A stretch of DNA of 32,982 bases. Source: Candidatus Peregrinibacteria bacterium. Lineage in GTDB: Bacteria; Patescibacteriota; Gracilibacteria; CAIRYL01. Below the pieces are notes generated by a model that saw only the letters and a list, made by a program, of their open reading frames with translations, searched no databases and was not told the origin of the DNA. The translations under genes were made by a program, and so were the position numbers. Positions within the stretch are counted from its first letter, which is position 1, and each line of letters begins with the position of its first letter. The stretch spans positions 1 through 32,982 of the forward strand of contig JACRHZ010000048.1 of assembly GCA_016220175.1 (NCBI GenBank), given 5' to 3'. Shown here in pieces: positions 23,005 through 31,044 of this stretch.

Positions 23005-24195
23005 TCACAGTACCTTCAGTCTCTCCGTTGCTTCTTCTATTTCTTCCATGGTGGGCATCAGGGCAAAACGGACATATCCATTCCCTGGATTAACGCCACC
23101 AGTGCATTCATCAGAAATCAGGCTTCCGGGAGTAACCACAATCGCAATATTTGGATCGAGGAGTTTTTCTGCAAATTCCACATCGCTCATCCCGCTCGGA
23201 ACTTTTTGCCAAATGTAAAATGTTGCATCAGGTTCAGCAACATCAAGTCTCATATTTCGAAGTGCTTTCGTGAGGATATTTCGTTTTTTGAAATACATTT
23301 TTCTCATACTCTCAACATGATCATCATCTTTCAGCGCGAGAATTCCGGCTTCCTGCATAATTGATGGCGTTCCAGAATCAATGTGAGTTTTCAGGTTTTT
23401 ATAGATGCTGATAATACGTGCATCGCCACACATAAATCCGACACGATAACCGGTCATATTATTTCTTTTGCTGAGTGAATAAAACGCCACGATTCCCTCA
23501 CGCGCCACTTCTAAAATCGAAATTGGTTTTTTTTCAAAATAAATGTCGATATAGCATCCTTCATCTGCCGCAATGATGATGTCGTGTTTTTTTGCCCAAG
23601 CAATAAGTGCTTGATAATAAGTTCTCTCGGCAATAGCGCCCGTGGGAGAATTCGGATAATTGATCCAAATGATTTTCGCTTTCTGACAGATTTCTTCTGG
23701 GATCGATTCATAATTGATAAGAAATTTATTGTGTGCGAGCAGCGGAACAAAATACGGCTCTCCTCCAGCAAGAATTGTCCCCGTTTTGTATGGAGGATAT
23801 CCAGGGGAAGGGCAAATCACGATATCACCGGGATTCAAAAATGCGAGTGGGAAATTAAAAACTGACTCTTTGGAACCAATACTGGAGCAAATTTCTGTTT
23901 CTGGATCGAGCTCGACTTGAAAACGCCTCTTCATATATTCCACTGCTGCTTCACGAAAATTTTGATTTCCGGTATAAAATGGATATCCAGTTCGAGCATG
24001 TTTTTCTCCAAACTTTTGAAGATTTTGAATCACAAAGTCGGGAGTTGGTTCTGTCGGGTCTCCAACTCCAAAATCTATCGGAGACTTCGCTGTGCCTTTT
24101 TGTGCAGCTTTTTTCAGTGCAGCAACTTTTTTATTGATCTCCGCGAAAGCGTAGGGCTTAATATTTTGCAGACGATCAGAACGAGCTAGAAGCAT
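23005..24195 (-). CDS. dapL: LL-diaminopimelate aminotransferase-like enzyme
   Basis: The 396-residue protein is a fold-type I PLP aminotransferase. Key pieces are DFGVGDPTEPTPDF near residue 41, the Y-P-YTGN segment near 75, WINYPNSPTGA near 173, ADEGCYIDIYF near 210, the PLP lysine in SLSKRNNMTGYRVG near 243, and YVRFALMP near the end. It closes an operon for lysine that has no dapD/dapC/dapE genes, so direct amination of tetrahydrodipicolinate by a DapL-type enzyme is the simplest route. That role is inferred from context; the family also contains aspartate and alanine aminotransferases. A word-repeat gap of 66 bases separates it from lysA. Confidence 0.8.
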   Translation of the reverse strand: MLLARSDRLQNIKPYAFAEINKKVAALKKAAQKGTAKSPIDFGVGDPTEPTPDFVIQNLQKFGEKHARTGYPFYTGNQNFREAAVEYMKRRFQVELDPETEICSSIGSKESVFNFPLAFLNPGDIVICPSPGYPPYKTGTILAGGEPYFVPLLAHNKFLINYESIPEEICQKAKIIWINYPNSPTGAIAERTYYQALIAWAKKHDIIIAADEGCYIDIYFEKKPISILEVAREGIVAFYSLSKRNNMTGYRVGFMCGDARIISIYKNLKTHIDSGTPSIMQEAGILALKDDDHVESMRKMYFKKRNILTKALRNMRLDVAEPDATFYIWQKVPSGMSDVEFAEKLLDPNIAIVVTPGSLISDECTGGVNPGNGYVRFALMPTMEEIEEATERLKVL

Positions 24196-24261: not shown

Positions 24262-25494
24262 TCATTCGAAGTTCAAAGTCGCAAATAAATCTTCAATTGT
24301 TTCCGATCTCCTAATCTGGCGAAATTTTCCGTCAGTTTGGAGAAGATATTCAGCATGTTTCATCCGACCATTATAATTGTGTCCCATAGCATAAGCGTGT
24401 GCTCCACAATTATGAATTACGACAACATCTCCAATATTTGAAATTGGAAGAATACGATCTTGAGCGAATTGATCATTATTTTCACAAATTCTTCCGACCA
24501 CGGAAACTTTTTCTTCCGAAGACGTAGAATTCAAGACAGAAATATGATGATATGCTCCATAAATCGATGGTCTTGGCATATCGTTGCTACTCGCATCAAT
24601 TCCCACAAAGGTCTTGTAACTTTCCTTGCGAAGAAGTATTCGAGAAATGAGCCACCCCGCATCAGCGGTAATGTACCTCCCCGGTTCTGCCATAAGCCGT
24701 GGCTGTTTCAGCGAATATTTTTCACAAGAATCCGTAATAACCTTGTGAATTTCTTTTGCGATTGCATTCATATCAAGACTTTTTTCCTCAGGCGCATAAG
24801 GAACTCCAAATCCTCCGCCAATATTCATAAATTCTATTTCGATCCCAGTTTGTGAATGTATTTCTGCCACGACTTCAAACAATTTTTGTACGACTTTTGG
24901 AAAATGTGAGGCATCAAGAATATTACTTCCCGTCATCATATGAATTCCGAATTTCTGAATTCCTAATTTTTTGGCTGCAGAATAAGCCTCTGCCGCTTTT
25001 TCAAATGGCATTCCAAATTTTGCATCTGGACCAGCCACTACAAGACTTTTCATTCCCCCATTTCCAATTCCTGGATTTATTCGAAATGAAAGCGTTTCTG
25101 GAACGCCGATTTTTTCAAGAAATGGAATCATGCTGATATCATCGAGATTGAGCACAAGTCCCTGTTTTTTCGCATATTCCAATTCTTCAGGAGGAGTATA
25201 ATTTCCGGTGTACATTCCGTGAGCATTCAGTTTTTTAGCGAGAAACACTTCCGATGGACTTGAAGTATCAAGATAAAATCCTTCTTCGAGAATAATTTTG
25301 AGAATTTCAGGATTTGGATTCGCTTTTACCGCATAAAAAGGCTGAAAATCTGGGAAATATTCACGAAATGCTTCTCTGTACCTTCGACAATTTTCCCGGA
25401 TTTTCGCTTCTGAATAGAGAAAAAATGGTGTTTTAAACTGCTCAGCAGCGGTCAGAATTTCATTTTTTGGAAGGCGAAGAACATGAGGGTTCAT
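24262..25494 (-). CDS. lysA: Diaminopimelate decarboxylase
   Basis: The 410-residue protein is a fold-type III PLP enzyme that turns meso-diaminopimelate into lysine. The PLP lysine is K57 in FYAVKANPNP. HMMTGSNI near 185 and MNIGGGFGVPY near 223 bind the phosphate, MAEPGRYIT near 275 follows, and VVIHNCGAHAYAMGHNYN near 358 is the substrate-binding C-terminal motif, with Cys and the adjacent residues as expected. Length is normal. It starts four bases after the dapA stop. Confidence 0.94.
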   Translation of the reverse strand: MNPHVLRLPKNEILTAAEQFKTPFFLYSEAKIRENCRRYREAFREYFPDFQPFYAVKANPNPEILKIILEEGFYLDTSSPSEVFLAKKLNAHGMYTGNYTPPEELEYAKKQGLVLNLDDISMIPFLEKIGVPETLSFRINPGIGNGGMKSLVVAGPDAKFGMPFEKAAEAYSAAKKLGIQKFGIHMMTGSNILDASHFPKVVQKLFEVVAEIHSQTGIEIEFMNIGGGFGVPYAPEEKSLDMNAIAKEIHKVITDSCEKYSLKQPRLMAEPGRYITADAGWLISRILLRKESYKTFVGIDASSNDMPRPSIYGAYHHISVLNSTSSEEKVSVVGRICENNDQFAQDRILPISNIGDVVVIHNCGAHAYAMGHNYNGRMKHAEYLLQTDGKFRQIRRSETIEDLFATLNFE

Positions 25495-25498
25495 ATGA

Positions 25499-26386
25499 TC
25501 AAATGAGGGAATAAGAATGCATCATTGTATCAAGAATTTTTTGAGATTCTTCACTTGGTTCACACATCGGCAGTCGGTATTGTAATTCACAAAGCCCTAT
25601 TTTTGATACTACATATTTCACGGGAATCGGATTTGTCTCAAGAAAGAGTTTTCCGAACATATCTCGCAAATACGTATCGATTTTTTCCGCTTCTTCGAAG
25701 TTTCCCGAAAGAGCACAGTTCACCATTTCTGAAATTTCTTTTGGAACAATGTTACTCGCAACAGAAATAACACCATCGCCGCCCATTTTCATGACTTCAA
25801 GAGTGAGTCCATCATCACCAGAAAGAACGGTAAAATCGTCCGGACGGTTTTTAATCACTTCGCGAATTTGGTCGAGATCTCCGCTCGCTTCTTTTACTCC
25901 TTGGATCATTTCGTGCTCAGCAATCACCATCAGTGTTTCGGTCGACATATTCACTCCAGTTCTTCCTTTGATATTGTAGACAATAATGGGAAGTCCAACA
26001 TTTGCGACTTCCAAAAAATGTCTTCGGAGTCCTTCTTGAGTCGGTTTATTATAATATGGACACACGACGAGACAGCAATCCGCTCCGGCTTTTTTGGCAA
26101 ATTCTGTGTGGAGAATGGCTTCGTGAGTTGAGTTGCTCCCAGTTCCCGCCATTACCAGGACTTTTCCATGGGCTTCTTCCTCACAGATTTCGAAGACATT
26201 TGGATCTTCATGAATGCCATTCGTGGTAGGAGATTCTCCAGTGGTACCAAGCGGAACAATTCCAGTGACACCATTTGCAATTTGTCTTTTTACGAGCTTT
26301 CGAAGAGCTTCTTCATCAATACTTCCGTTCTTTTGGAAAGGAGTGATAAGAGCAGTCCATGTGCCGGCGTATGTTCGTGTGTTCAT
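25499..26386 (-). CDS. dapA: 4-Hydroxy-tetrahydrodipicolinate synthase
   Basis: The 295-residue protein condenses pyruvate with aspartate semialdehyde. The Schiff-base lysine is K165 in GVKEASGDL. The Thr pair of the proton relay is in PLGTTGESPT (45-54), and the catalytic Tyr is Y137 in VYNIKGRTGVN. The usual motif there is YNxPxRTG; this protein has K where Pro is expected. ALITPF and the tail are normal. Length matches the family (about 290). The gene is separated from dapB by a word-palindrome gap and nearly touches lysA. Confidence 0.94.
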   Translation of the reverse strand: MNTRTYAGTWTALITPFQKNGSIDEEALRKLVKRQIANGVTGIVPLGTTGESPTTNGIHEDPNVFEICEEEAHGKVLVMAGTGSNSTHEAILHTEFAKKAGADCCLVVCPYYNKPTQEGLRRHFLEVANVGLPIIVYNIKGRTGVNMSTETLMVIAEHEMIQGVKEASGDLDQIREVIKNRPDDFTVLSGDDGLTLEVMKMGGDGVISVASNIVPKEISEMVNCALSGNFEEAEKIDTYLRDMFGKLFLETNPIPVKYVVSKIGLCELQYRLPMCEPSEESQKILDTMMHSYSLI

Positions 26387-26399
26387 GGGAAGAGATAAA

Positions 26400-26537
26400 A
26401 AAATTTTAAATTTTGAATTCTGAATTTTGAATTACATTTGAAATTATAAAGAGTTCACGGGTGAAATAAGGCTGGAGTGAAGGAGAAAAATCCTCTCTAA
26501 AAAATTTAAAATTTATAATTTAAAATTCAAAATTTCT
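26400..26537. repeat. AT-rich word palindrome spanning the dapB stop
   Basis: AAATTTTAAATTTTGAATTC and TGAATTTTGAATTAC lie on one side, AAATTTAAAATTTATAATTT and AAAATTCAAAATTTC on the other; they are complementary with one-word offsets. The core holds GAGAAAAATCCTCTC and GGCTGGAGTGAAGG. The arm runs into dapB, so the last six residues of DapB (ILNFKL) are encoded by the repeat. Confidence 0.7.
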
Positions 26538-27268
26538 CTGAGGTAGTCCTCCATCTCAAAATATCCCTTCTTTCCCTGAAGCCATTCAGCAGCTTTCACG
26601 GCGCCGAGTGCATATCCATCACGGTTTCGCGCTTCATGAGTAATGAGAATTTTATCCGCGGCAGAATCGAATCCAATTGTGTGTGCAAAATTCACCACTC
26701 CTCCACGAACAGAAGAGAAATGAATTTCGTCATCTTCACGGCGACGATCGAGTTTTTCCTCCACAATAGATTTTTTTCTGGGAATATTTTCCAAGAGAAT
26801 TTTTTCCAAAGTTTTTGTTGTTCCAGAAGGCGAATCCGATTTATTACAATGATGAATTTCATGTCCCCAAATATCATACTCATCAAAAGCACCTATTAGT
26901 TTTGCAGTCTCAGCAATGATGCGAAAATAGAGATGTATTCCAAGAGAAAAGTTCGAAGACCAGAGAAATCCTATTTTTCCAGATTCAATTTGTTTTCGAA
27001 TTTCTGGAAGTTTTTCATACCACCCCGTGGTTCCTACAAGAAGGCTTACTTCTGACTTAAGGCAGATTTTAATATTTTTCTGAACTGCAAAACCGTGAGA
27101 AAAATCGAGTACGAGGTTAATTCCCAAAAGTGCTTCGGGGATAATTTCCCGAAAATTTGCTTCCGGCGCATTTGGATCTATAATCGCTGAAACAATGTGT
27201 CCTCTCTCAAGAGCAATCCGATGAATCGATTTTCCCATTGAGCCGTAACCAAGAAGTGCAATGTTCAT
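26513..27268 (-). CDS. dapB: 4-Hydroxy-tetrahydrodipicolinate reductase
   Basis: The 251-residue protein reduces the DapA product with NAD(P)H. The Rossmann start is MNIALLGYGSMGKSIHR. VLDFSHGFAV near 79 and GTTGWYE near 98 follow, then the catalytic EIHHCNKSDSPSGTTKTLE near 140, with the His pair and Lys, and FAHTIGFDSA near 200. The enzyme is a little shorter than the usual 265-275. The frame is open six codons further to 27286, but homology begins at MNIALLGYG. The C-terminal residues come from an AT-rich repeat arm. The gene follows asd after 40 bases. Confidence 0.93.
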   Translation of the reverse strand: MNIALLGYGSMGKSIHRIALERGHIVSAIIDPNAPEANFREIIPEALLGINLVLDFSHGFAVQKNIKICLKSEVSLLVGTTGWYEKLPEIRKQIESGKIGFLWSSNFSLGIHLYFRIIAETAKLIGAFDEYDIWGHEIHHCNKSDSPSGTTKTLEKILLENIPRKKSIVEEKLDRRREDDEIHFSSVRGGVVNFAHTIGFDSAADKILITHEARNRDGYALGAVKAAEWLQGKKGYFEMEDYLREILNFKL

Positions 27269-27308: not shown

Positions 27309-28343
27309 TTATTTCAAAAATAATTCTGCAATTTTTACCGCATTGAGAGCGGCTCCTCTGAGAAGCTGATCTCCAGAAATAAAAAATTCGAGTCCATGAT
27401 CGCCAAATATGAGATTTTGCCGAATTCGTCCAACTTCCACATCATGTTTTCCGGAAGCATGAATTGGCATCGGATAGATATTCTGTTTCGGATCGTCACG
27501 AAGAACGACTCCAGGAGTTTTCTCAAGAATTTTCCGAGCGGAATTGGGATCAATTTGATGTTCAGTTTCAATGACGATGGATTCACTGTGAGCGCGAAGA
27601 GTAGGAATACGAACTGCAGTACAGGAAATTTTCAAGGATTCATCTCCAAAAATTTTGCAAAGTTCCCATGCAACTTTCATTTCTTCTTTCGTGTAGCCAT
27701 TTTCCTGAAAACTATCAATGTGAGGAATGATATTAAATGCAATTTGATGTGAAAAATATCTACCCTGAACAGGATTTTCTTGAATTTTTTCAAAATCACC
27801 TTTGCAATGATCGAGCACGGTCTTTGTTTGATCAATAAGTTCCTGCATTCCTTTTGCTCCAGCTCCAGACGTTGCTTGATATGTACTCATAAGAATTTTT
27901 TTGAGTCCAAATTTTTGATGAAGTGGCCAAAGGACCATTGCGGCAATTGCAGTCGTACAATTCGGATTGCTGATGACTCCAGAGTGATGTTTTGCGAATT
28001 TTGAGTTAATTTCGGGAATTACGAGTGGAACATCATTTTCGTATCGAAATGCAGAAGAGTTGTCGATCATGAGGCAATTCTTTTGAATGACTTTTTCTCT
28101 CCACATTTTACTCACGTCGTTTCCAGCGGAAAAAAGAGCGATATCGCTCTCCTCGAAAATTTCTTCTGAAAGTGTCTCGAGTGGCAATCCTCCAAATGGA
28201 GTTTCTATCATTTTCCCCACAGATTTTTCCGAAGCTATGAGTCGGAGTTTCCCCACCGGAAAATGAAGTTGGTGAAGGCAGGAAATCATTTCATGTCCAA
28301 CTGCTCCCGTGGCGCCAACAATAACTATATTTTTTGAATTCAT
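27309..28343 (-). CDS. asd: Aspartate-semialdehyde dehydrogenase
   Basis: The 344-residue protein reduces aspartyl phosphate to the semialdehyde with NADPH. The nucleotide motif VGATGAVGHEM lies at 9-19, and the active cysteine is C129 in SNPNCTTAIAA. QATSGAGAKGM lies near 165 and the catalytic His is in TLRAHSESIVIE near 251. Length is normal. Its ATG overlaps the lysC stop in ATGA, so the two are translationally coupled. Confidence 0.95.
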   Translation of the reverse strand: MNSKNIVIVGATGAVGHEMISCLHQLHFPVGKLRLIASEKSVGKMIETPFGGLPLETLSEEIFEESDIALFSAGNDVSKMWREKVIQKNCLMIDNSSAFRYENDVPLVIPEINSKFAKHHSGVISNPNCTTAIAAMVLWPLHQKFGLKKILMSTYQATSGAGAKGMQELIDQTKTVLDHCKGDFEKIQENPVQGRYFSHQIAFNIIPHIDSFQENGYTKEEMKVAWELCKIFGDESLKISCTAVRIPTLRAHSESIVIETEHQIDPNSARKILEKTPGVVLRDDPKQNIYPMPIHASGKHDVEVGRIRQNLIFGDHGLEFFISGDQLLRGAALNAVKIAELFLK

Positions 28344-29659
28344 GATTTTGTAAAAAATGCAGAAAAAACTTTTTTTGCAACTTCGGACGCTTCAGATTCA
28401 TTCACGAGAAATGTTACGTTTCTCTGAGATGCTCCTTGAGAGACCATGCGAATAACGTGGTCCGAAACGACAGAAAATAGGCGCGATAAAATTCCCTTCC
28501 CAGTGCCAATGCCATTTCCCACAAGACAAACAATCGCCATATTTGGAAGAATATCCACGCTCGAAAATTTTGCCAGATCTTTCAGAATGTCATCTGGGAG
28601 AGAACTGTCTACAGTTAAAGACACGCTTACTTCAGAAGTCGCAACTACGTCGACAATTACTTCATATTCTGCGAATACCTCAAATATTTTGGCTAAAAAT
28701 CCATGGGCATTGAGCATTCCCGCAGAACAAATCGTAATAATAGAAATTCCTTTTTTGTACGTAACTGATTTTATGGAATCAATTTTTTTGTGAGTAATGA
28801 TTGTTCCCGCTGCTTCTGGATGAAATGTATTCAAAATTCGAACAGGAATATTTTTTTGAATTGCAGGAATAATAGTTTTTGGATGAAGCACTTTTGCTCC
28901 GAAATATGCAAGTTCTCCCGCTTCTTCAAAAGAAAGACTTTGAAGCGGATGGGCTTTTGGGATATTTCTCGGATCTGCATTAAAAATTCCATCCACATCT
29001 GTCCAAATCTGGAGCTCATCTGCGTTCATTGCTGCGGCGAGAATTGCACCAGAGTAGTCACTTCCGCCACGTCCGAGAGTGCTCCGTTGCCCACTTCGTG
29101 ATTGTCCAAGAAAACCAGTGACCACAGGAAGTATCTCCTCAGAAAGTATCGGGTTTATAACAGCTTCAATTGTGGAATTCGTTTTCAAAAAATCTACATT
29201 CGCTTCGCCAAAATTGTCATCAGTAAAAATAATGTCAAAACTGTCTATAGGTTTCGACAAAATTCCGCGTTTTTCGAGGAGAGCCGAAAGAATGATACTG
29301 CTCATTCTCTCCCCAAAGGACAATAATTTATCTTTAGAACTCAGAGACAATTCTCCAAGCATGTGAATTCCCTGAAGGAGTTTTTGCATTTCCGTAAACA
29401 TTGCCTCGAAATTCACCGAAACACCCAAATCCCCGACTATTTTTTCATGGCGATCTCGTATTTCTCGGAATTTTTCCAGAAAAGTACCATGCTGCAACGC
29501 AGCATTTCCAAGCTCAATGAGAACATCGGTTGTTCCTGATGATGCCGAAACTACAGCAATTTTTTCAGCATGTATTTTTTGAAGAATATCAGCAACCGCA
29601 GAAATGGATTTTGCTGTTCCCATGGAAGTGCCTCCGAATTTTGCGACAATACGATTCAT
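28340..29659 (-). CDS. lysC: Monofunctional aspartokinase
   Basis: The 439-residue protein phosphorylates aspartate, the first step to lysine, methionine and threonine. The kinase domain begins VAKFGGTSMGTAKSI and has TLGRGGSDYSGAILAAAMNADELQIWTD near 205-230, with VDGIFNADPR. Two ACT domains follow, one near 300-365 (ITICSAGMLNAHGFLAKIF) and one near 375-439 (AIVCLVGNGIGTGKGILSRLF). The enzyme is therefore probably also under feedback control by an amino acid. The frame is open to 29728, but that stretch overlaps the attenuator terminator, so ATG 29659 (or 29662) is the start. It is the first gene after the Lys-codon leader. Confidence 0.94.
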   Translation of the reverse strand: MNRIVAKFGGTSMGTAKSISAVADILQKIHAEKIAVVSASSGTTDVLIELGNAALQHGTFLEKFREIRDRHEKIVGDLGVSVNFEAMFTEMQKLLQGIHMLGELSLSSKDKLLSFGERMSSIILSALLEKRGILSKPIDSFDIIFTDDNFGEANVDFLKTNSTIEAVINPILSEEILPVVTGFLGQSRSGQRSTLGRGGSDYSGAILAAAMNADELQIWTDVDGIFNADPRNIPKAHPLQSLSFEEAGELAYFGAKVLHPKTIIPAIQKNIPVRILNTFHPEAAGTIITHKKIDSIKSVTYKKGISIITICSAGMLNAHGFLAKIFEVFAEYEVIVDVVATSEVSVSLTVDSSLPDDILKDLAKFSSVDILPNMAIVCLVGNGIGTGKGILSRLFSVVSDHVIRMVSQGASQRNVTFLVNESEASEVAKKVFSAFFTKS

Positions 29660-29672
29660 CATAAGTACAAAT

Positions 29673-29702
29673 AAAAAAATCCGCTCTGAACTCAAAGCGG
29701 AT
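29673..29702 (-). terminator. Intrinsic terminator in the lysC leader (attenuator)
   Basis: On the minus strand ATCCGCTTTGA (29702-29692) pairs with TCAGAGCGGAT (29689-29679), one G-U pair included, and seven T residues follow (29679-29673). It lies between the leader peptide and the lysC start, so it can only act as a conditional terminator. Its 5' arm TCCGCT (29701-29696) can instead pair with AGCGGA at 29745-29740, directly at the leader stop codon. Confidence 0.9.
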
Positions 29703-29743
29703 AGAATATTCAAAAAGTGACAAGGCACAAAGAATTCTCTCCG

Positions 29744-29791
29744 CTAGGAGGTGGACTTCTTTGCCTTCTTTATTTGAGAAACGACGTGCAT
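29744..29791 (-). CDS. Lysine-rich leader peptide of the lysine operon
   Basis: The 15-codon frame reads MHVVSQIKKAKKSTS and stops at TAG. Four of its residues are Lys, arranged KK-A-KK. The frame lies between a consensus promoter (29813-29841) and an intrinsic terminator. Its Lys codons fall in an RNA segment (AAGGCAAAGAA) that can pair with TTCTTTGTGCCTT further on. A ribosome stopped at TAG would cover AGCGGA and let the terminator form; a ribosome starved of Lys-tRNA would stall upstream and leave AGCGGA free to pair with the terminator arm. The design matches classical attenuation (trp, his, thr leaders). Expression has not been shown. Confidence 0.78.
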   Translation of the reverse strand: MHVVSQIKKAKKSTS

Positions 29792-29812
29792 ATGAGAATG
29801 AATACGCGGGAA

Positions 29813-29841
29813 TTATTATTGCATCTCAGAAATAATGTCAA
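29813..29841 (-). promoter_or_regulatory. Promoter of the lysine operon
   Basis: A perfect -35 TTGACA (29841-29836) and a -10 TAATAA (29818-29813) are 17 bases apart on the minus strand. Transcription should begin near 29806, about 15 bases before the leader peptide ATG. Confidence 0.82.
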
Positions 29842-29874: not shown

Positions 29875-31044
29875 TCACGTCAGCAGTTCTTCGAATTTAT
29901 TTTCTGTCGCTGCATCTCGTATCTCCATCGCAATCCGCTCTCCATAGCTGATGCTTTCTCCATACAAATATCCAGAATACGGAGTAAATCTTGTCCCCGG
30001 AGAACCGGGAATACGCATGCTCACATCAAAAACCACCATTTCTTCTTTTCCCTGTTCAGAAATATACGCTCCCTGAAGTGCAAAAGGACCAATAATTCCG
30101 GGAGAACACTCTTTTTTGCTGACGGTCACAAATCTTTCCCCAAGTTCAAACATTTTTTCGACAATTGATTCTTTCGTGGTACAAGCAATGTGACCATTTT
30201 CTACCATTGTTGGCTGAAATCCATTATGAATGAGCGTGAGTTGCTCCTGAGCATTTAAACGGAGAAATCCATCCATATTCGTTTGTCTTCGCATATCGGT
30301 TCCCATGATTTCAAGTTCTTTTGAGAGCGGAGAATAAAAATAATTAAAATTTATTTGTGGTCCAATAATAAATTCTTCAATTACCGCACGATCGATATCT
30401 TCTTTTTTCGCACCTCGATTCACGCGTTTTTTTCGCTCCTCCACATAATCTTCGTATGTAAAAATAAAAAAGAAATCCCGTTCATATCCACGTTCAAGTT
30501 CAGAAGCTTTAACGAGAAGTGGGCTGTGCGCGTTTTTTCTCCACGTCGTAATATTATTTTTGAGCTCCTGTTCGGTCATCTTTGATCCTCCCGGACGAAT
30601 AAGAAGCGGCATGCGAATCCCTGCTTTCCGAAGAAGTTCATACTGATTCCCGGGCTGATCGCGTTCTTCTCTTCTCAGCATTTCACGATTTCCAAAAATG
30701 GGAACCCTGAATTCATTTTCAATTTTTGTGTAATCTGAGTAGACCCAGAAATATCGATTCTGGACCATGATGGCACTTGATTTTCTGAGCTCTTCCTGAA
30801 TATCACTTCGCACTATATCTGAGAATTTATCTACAAGGATTACTTGATCAATGCACCCTTTTTTTCCTCGAGTTTTATAATATTCTGAATATGTCTTGGC
30901 ACGATTTTTCTGACACACAGCAAGTGTTTTGAACCCATATTTTTTTGCGCCATGACAAACGTCAAGCGCAGAATGACCGCCAAGAACGGCGATGGTGAGT
31001 TGCTTGGTGTCGTACGTCTTTGTGATTTCGGAGATATTGACCAT
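29875..31044 (-). CDS. PurP-like formate-dependent ligase, second paralogue
   Basis: The 389-residue protein is related over its length to the neighbouring PurP gene. The start has VLGGHSALDVCHGAKKYGFKTL, equivalent to the GSHxALQ motif with the conserved His. LLVKASE and AVIEEFIIGPQINFNYFYSPLSKELEIMGTDMR form the ATP-grasp part, and FDVSMRIPGSPGT is the metal-binding strand with its Arg. It is about 50 residues longer than the neighbour, with a charged insert (EERKKRVNRGAKKEDID). Archaea often have two PurP paralogues, of which one has uncertain function. It may be a true AICAR formyl ligase, a subunit, or a related ATP-grasp enzyme. Confidence 0.82.
   Translation of the reverse strand: MVNISEITKTYDTKQLTIAVLGGHSALDVCHGAKKYGFKTLAVCQKNRAKTYSEYYKTRGKKGCIDQVILVDKFSDIVRSDIQEELRKSSAIMVQNRYFWVYSDYTKIENEFRVPIFGNREMLRREERDQPGNQYELLRKAGIRMPLLIRPGGSKMTEQELKNNITTWRKNAHSPLLVKASELERGYERDFFFIFTYEDYVEERKKRVNRGAKKEDIDRAVIEEFIIGPQINFNYFYSPLSKELEIMGTDMRRQTNMDGFLRLNAQEQLTLIHNGFQPTMVENGHIACTTKESIVEKMFELGERFVTVSKKECSPGIIGPFALQGAYISEQGKEEMVVFDVSMRIPGSPGTRFTPYSGYLYGESISYGERIAMEIRDAATENKFEELLT

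Follow-up and report, generated by a model that had tools for sequence, protein, structure and literature searches.

The leader of the lysC operon in the 32,982-nucleotide stretch of DNA analysed here (the window) is very probably a ribosome-mediated transcription attenuator that senses charged tRNA-Lys, a reading built on its sequence and modelled folds and supported by conservation in ten leaders, by the fold models and by the lack of a riboswitch match. A short frame with clustered Lys codons lies ahead of a lysine operon, an intrinsic terminator stands between that frame and lysC, and the antiterminator has one arm in common with the terminator; a ribosome at the control codons is predicted to free the antiterminator arm near the leader stop codon (arm 2), and a ribosome at the stop codon to hide it.

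All parts of the leader are encoded on the minus strand, in the interval that separates a purP-like gene (ending at 29875) from the lysC ATG (29662). A sigma-70-type promoter (TTGACA-18-AATAAT; TTGACA 29841-29836, TAATAAT 29818-29812; 11/12 matches, the best promoter match of the region scan) precedes a 15-codon leader peptide frame, MHVVSQIKKAKKSTS, which runs from ATG 29791 to TAG 29744 without a Shine-Dalgarno sequence and contains the control codons AAG AAG GCA AAG AAG (Lys Lys Ala Lys Lys; 29756..29770; from sequence and fold model). Inside the Lys codons lies arm 1 of a protector hairpin (AAGGCAAAGAA, 29767-29757), whose 3' side, TTCTTTGTGCCTT, occupies 29734-29722; both were located by folding and in an alignment of related leaders (A4, described below), and a small inner hairpin (CTCC-TAGC-GGAG, 29739..29750) ties up part of arm 2 while the protector is formed. 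Arm 2 itself, the antiterminator arm AGCGGA (29745-29740; alignment, with the arms registered by hand), overlaps the leader stop TAG, and its partner, arm 3 (TCCGCT, 29701-29696; covariation and fold model), is common to antiterminator and terminator. The intrinsic terminator, listed first in the region terminator scan, has a 10 bp stem (ATCCGCT-TTGAGTTC-AGAGCGGAT, 29702-29679), with arm 4, AGCGGA, at 29685-29680 and a U-tract of seven T at 29679-29673. An earlier sequence-only reading of this DNA had proposed the promoter, the Lys-codon frame, the hairpin, the terminator, the pairing of the Lys codons with their 3' partner and a rival arm for TCCGCT at the leader stop; every base stood where it had placed it and both pairings were found. 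The antiterminator is longer than that reading saw, with a second, upper stem in the fold model (AGAAT 29738-29734 with ATTCT 29703..29707) extending AGCGGA/TCCGCT, and equivalents of this stem in relatives have different sequences (TAGTT/AACTA in L118, GTTCTT/AAGAAC in L038).

From these parts we infer how the leader would work in the cell. Transcription would start a few bases after 29812, and a ribosome would begin the 15-codon leader without a Shine-Dalgarno sequence. With lysyl-tRNA in short supply, the ribosome would pause on any one of the four AAG codons, with its 3' side just short of AGCGGA 29745-29740; stalled there, it would break the protector hairpin, the freed AGCGGAGAGAAT would pair with ATTCTATCCGCT, and, with the 5' arm of the terminator occupied, polymerase would continue into lysC-asd-dapB-dapA-lysA-aminotransferase. 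With lysyl-tRNA plentiful, the ribosome would reach the UAG and cover AGCGGA, TCCGCT would pair with the downstream AGCGGA, and transcription would stop at 29673. Were the leader left untranslated, the protector hairpin would hold AGCGGA and the terminator would form too.

The operon, all of it on the minus strand, opens with lysC (28340..29662), a lysine-sensitive aspartate kinase above the cut-off of NF006570, and continues with profile matches to asd (aspartate-semialdehyde dehydrogenase, 27309..28343), dapB (26513..27268), dapA (25499..26386) and lysA (diaminopimelate decarboxylase, 24262..25494). A DapL/DapC-type aminotransferase follows (23005..24195; Pfam PF00155); its best models are LL-diaminopimelate aminotransferases, all below cut-off (428 vs 507 and 414 vs 593 bits for the DapL equivalog models), and, judged by sequence, it is probably the last lysine gene of the operon. 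Five lysine genes beyond lysC had been claimed; asd, dapB, dapA and lysA stand, and the fifth counts only if this below-cut-off aminotransferase is DapL.

Orthologues of lysC with 52-60% identity occur in a family of the same class (f18), and nine of these relatives carry the same arrangement directly upstream of lysC, making ten leaders with that of the window, or about eight independent lineages because three of the leaders (L038, L040 and L043) share one genus. A TTGACA-type promoter stands at the equivalent place in the nine related leaders, whose peptides (MQASVTKKGKKTKLSAE, MHFQIVDKKSKKLIS, MDFSRTTKKIKKPCSWRS, MFHSVDKKKAKKLYLLAE, MINIVSENKKLKKIQF, MNFIVNTKKAKKFISKVE, MIRKEFKKTKKMLPAG, MERKELKKTKKMLPAE and MARKELKKTKKMLPAG) all contain KKxKK, a motif thus kept in frame in 10/10. 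Arm 2 lies at the stop codon in every leader (stop codon between -2 and +7 nt relative to the GCGG core), and arms 2 and 3 have changed in matched fashion (AGCGGA/TCCGCT, GGCGGA/TCCGCC, GCGGGA/TCCTGC, TGCGGG/CCCGCA, GCGGAG/CTCCGC and AGGTGG/CCGCCT). The sequence-only reading would have been undermined by homologous leaders that kept the terminator while lacking the Lys codons or the alternative pairing; all ten keep the three together, and one further orthologue (L037/G107) has retained the promoter and lost frame, arms and terminator all at once.

Pairing was scored on alignment A4, which was fitted to protector and terminator; plain MAFFT alignments (A2 and A3), which misaligned the Lys codons, were discarded. 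Across protector, inner hairpin and terminator, 93.3% of cells are paired vs 81.3% in shuffles, which ignore kinship (0/500), with 8 pairs changed on both sides and a covariation score of 0.41 vs 0.19 in shuffles. The protector helix (columns 37-43 with 68-74) is 91% paired, with 2/7 pairs changed on both sides; the inner hairpin (helix 2) has 97.5% of cells paired and mostly one-sided changes; and the terminator (helix 3) is 93% paired, with 6/7 pairs changed on both sides. The antiterminator core, two rows of which are out of register, is 75.7% paired vs 71.2% in shuffles that likewise ignore kinship (4/500). When a covariance model built from the ten leaders was searched against 353 genomes of the class, strong matches (E < 1e-10) came up at those ten only, and the next match lay at 4e-4. 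The weak matches L138, L139 and most others were not accepted as relatives; L133, which has a Lys leader with matching arms and no recognisable gene downstream, was left out as well, and lysC genes of the same order as the window (L003-L010, 37-42% identity) belong to other operons without a leader and were not treated as orthologous in the conservation test. Our scan found no Lys leader at the lysine operons of genomes G159 and G034.

These data bear on the extremely improbable reading that the hairpin simply ends transcription of the purP-like gene upstream (29875-31044), with the Lys-rich frame a product of chance. The terminator does lie between two same-strand genes, 170 bases past the end of the purP-like gene; however, a near-consensus promoter stands between that gene and the hairpin, the hairpin stays with lysC beside different upstream genes in the nine relatives, and several relatives (e.g. 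L016 and L038) have a separate terminator ahead of the promoter. Against a chance frame, the complete genome (1.49 Mb, 79 contigs) was scanned on both strands for short frames that have the same residue four times within seven codons and are followed by a terminator and T-run, with an arm close to the stop codon able to pair with the terminator's 5' arm; the lysC leader was the only Lys match. The free leader RNA also folds more stably than its dinucleotide shuffles (z = -2.9, 1/200).

The geometry of the leaders suits a ribosome-operated switch. In 10/10 leaders, 9-12 nt separate the last base of the fourth Lys codon from the GCGG core of arm 2, about as much mRNA as a ribosome covers ahead of its A-site. 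When nascent RNA was folded with the ribosome footprint masked, an A-site at Lys 1-3 left all core antiterminator pairs formed in 10/10 leaders and an A-site at the stop codon left none in any of them, while free RNA folded into protector plus terminator in all ten; folding with and without a ribosome, which had been put forward as a check on the attenuator reading, thus predicts switching between Lys codons and stop codon throughout. With the ribosome at Lys 3, between 0 and 5 of 200 shuffles match the arm pairing of the real leaders. In L038, L040 and L043, all of one genus, one or two bases of arm 2 are already covered when the ribosome sits at the fourth Lys codon. Even with a ribosome at Lys 1-4, the finished terminator of the window exceeds the antiterminator in stability by 2-6 kcal/mol, and the window leader always favours the terminator when folded without a ribosome or with the finished terminator included; the switch must therefore rest on the antiterminator forming first, that is, on the order of synthesis, which decides in other ribosome-mediated attenuators too.

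A terminator with a rival pairing is riboswitch anatomy as well, and lysine operons elsewhere use the L-box riboswitch (PMC1262725). We nevertheless consider it very unlikely that the leader is a lysine-binding or other riboswitch, or a terminator operated by a protein or small RNA, with the short frame incidental. Nothing in the leader matches Rfam at gathering score, and the only matches at E <= 1, anti-hemB and WsnRNA59, are sRNA families far below their cut-offs. The covariance model of the lysine riboswitch (RF00168) has no match in the leader or in any of 341 genomes of the class (0/341), although it was detected in 4 control genomes, E. coli and B. subtilis among them; a match to a known riboswitch model, which would have spoken against the sequence-only reading, is thus lacking here. 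Conservation in the ten leaders, moreover, falls on the in-frame Lys codons and on their ribosome-sized spacing from arm 2, and not on an unpaired aptamer core. The T-box (RF00230) has no match in the window or its genome and none above cut-off in 192 genomes of the class, 21 of which have weak matches. At one locus elsewhere (L266, G141:C33) a divergent T-box match of 81 bits, below cut-off, is accompanied by an Arg-rich leader, MHNLFSRRNRRRRKKPQKFR, that has a 13-bp rival arm.

If the leader is an attenuator, its signal need not be lysine charging itself; it could be a general slowing of translation, or the tRNA-Lys(CUU) isoacceptor or its modification, with lysine as only one cause. The codon usage gives this idea some footing. 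AAG makes up 37/40 control codons across the ten leaders and 4/4 in the window leader, in a genome with 20% AAG (18957 AAA vs 4892 AAG among all Lys codons; 214 AAA vs 51 AAG in lysC of the nine relatives), and tRNA-Lys(CUU) has a gene of its own beside that for tRNA-Lys(UUU). The preference may, however, follow in part from pairing with the CTT-rich protector strand. We think non-lysine sensing unlikely: the operon makes lysine, its first enzyme is of the lysine-sensitive type, and the sibling leaders of this genome each feature the amino acid that belongs to the pathway behind them, which fits amino-acid sensing.

The scan of the same genome brought up these siblings ahead of arginine, cysteine, aromatic and leuS genes. 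Two Arg leaders lie on the minus strand of one contig (L185, G000:C34), with downstream genes at L185:6931-7863 and L185:9320-10204 (both minus): MNISHLSTLRRLIRRYWKLQELRRC, with the codons CGA CGA TTG ATT CGA CGA, precedes argF-argG (ornithine carbamoyltransferase and argininosuccinate synthase), and MFLPLLHVRRQIRRFWFLEKLRRC, with RRQIRR, precedes an arginine-deiminase-like gene; both have CGA CGA control codons and antiterminators of 7-10 bp, and we know of no Arg-codon transcription attenuator from bacteria. A Cys leader (MKIDTMIPTASCICCCTIEHCSRAT, with CICCC; L168:15321-15398, plus strand, G000:C17) and its terminator stand directly before genes for a cysteine synthase and a cystathionine synthase-like protein. 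Aromatic leaders precede prephenate dehydrogenase/dehydratase (FFFYFFW; L253:2918-2998, plus, G000:C59) and DAHP synthase (FWAFYFF; L177:3426-3482, plus, G000:C26). A Leu leader (LLLLL) ending in ISLLLLLRIQRG is followed by a terminator (L155:3685-3798, plus, G000:C4), and leuS starts about 590 bases past its stop codon. In five siblings that we folded, the antiterminator persists to the last control codon or slightly past it and is lost before the stop. Translation in this genome (G000) starts without Shine-Dalgarno sequences, judging from motifs of that kind being rarer upstream of its ORFs (3/509) than in a control stretch (18/509). Beyond this genome, Lys leaders with other arm sequences stand before lysC in L022 and L030. 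We consider it likely that the class controls its amino-acid pathways largely by an attenuation regulon with leaders that have no Shine-Dalgarno sequence, not by riboswitches or repressors, a regulon that would span Lys, Arg, Met, Cys, Thr, aromatic amino acids and leuS; the Lys leaders with unrelated arms (L022, L030 and L151) may have several origins.

Several further leaders were seen in passing. A Thr leader (TTTTTT) with a matching terminator is followed by a transposase-like gene (L213:5469-5549, plus, G000:C63), where an insertion has perhaps separated a Thr attenuator from its operon. Before a homocysteine S-methyltransferase gene (Pfam PF02574, 307 aa) lies a Met leader, MYQSTQMMMAMMMRTMRRLMCCM, with a CTCCGCA/TGCGGAG switch (L134, G085:C1, minus), and before asd another Thr leader, MQINLTTKTKTAHLLRG (L140, G140:C39, minus), in a genome where TGA apparently encodes Gly. 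Genus g137 has two tandem Lys leaders before an aspartate-kinase-like gene (L151, G333:C11, minus; Pfam AA_kinase at E = 0.002, below cut-off); in its loci L132 (G199:C78) and L135 (G253:C63), one Lys leader each stands before a small protein with no Pfam match. In Myxococcus, Corallococcus and relatives (L063, L065-L067, L069, L075, L076, L078 and L081), Thr-rich, mostly poly-Thr leaders with strong terminators lie upstream of lysC, and these are probably Thr attenuators.

The window's genome belongs to a different order of the class from family f18, and the lysC genes of its own family are only 37-42% identical and have no leader. Either operon and attenuator were lost in the relatives of the window's genome, or the two were transferred jointly between lineages. 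The named relatives in family f18 are Candidatus Peribacteria and Peregrinibacteria, and as the nearest named relatives by sequence they support placing the window in the CPR.

In textbooks, attenuation is described for a handful of amino acids and a few phyla, with lysine usually left to riboswitches or T-boxes; to our knowledge, no classical transcription attenuator has been described for lysine, arginine or methionine. That a Lys-codon leader would be a rarity, as the sequence-only reading held, agrees with our literature search, which found no lysine attenuator in an incomplete coverage that left most subscription journals outside, a result to be read as 'not found' and not as 'never reported'. 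It returned only the L-box statement for lysine operons (PMC1262725) and a Thr/Lys-rich ORF of S. meliloti (PMC10117765). The attenuation mechanism would be classical, and lysine as the sensed amino acid appears to be undescribed. Reduced, mostly uncultured CPR bacteria probably still sense single amino acids through the coupling of transcription and translation, without Shine-Dalgarno sequences, and such leaders give sequence-based evidence on which amino acids an organism makes and regulates itself.

Among known systems, the attenuators of the proteobacterial trp, his, thr, leu, ilv, phe operons likewise have a promoter, a leader peptide rich in the end product, mutually exclusive protector, antiterminator and terminator, and the terminator before the first gene; in them, as is predicted for the lysC leader, a stalled ribosome leads to read-through and a terminating ribosome to termination. 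Unlike them, the lysC leader concerns lysine, resides in a CPR host, has no Shine-Dalgarno sequence and has its antiterminator arm placed at the leader stop, with part of that arm in a small hairpin within the protector loop. The T-box (RF00230) also senses tRNA charging and controls a terminator, but binds the tRNA itself; the lysine riboswitch (L-box, RF00168) also controls lysC-type genes through a 5' leader terminator, but binds lysine directly and needs no leader peptide. The SEP5 small ORF of S. meliloti, with three Lys and six Thr codons upstream of aspartate dehydrogenase, is a possible leader peptide (PMC10117765) and resembles the lysC leader as a short Lys-containing frame before an aspartate-pathway gene; it differs in having no reported attenuator structure, in being mainly Thr and in not preceding a lysine operon (PMC10117765). 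In Actinobacteria, where a survey lists no RNA regulatory structure in front of lysine or arginine operons, attenuators or leader peptides occur at trp, leuS, ilvB and cys (PMC1262725), and the leaders described there with Leu codons before leuS and with Cys codons before cysteine genes (PMC1262725) are like the sibling attenuators in the window's genome.
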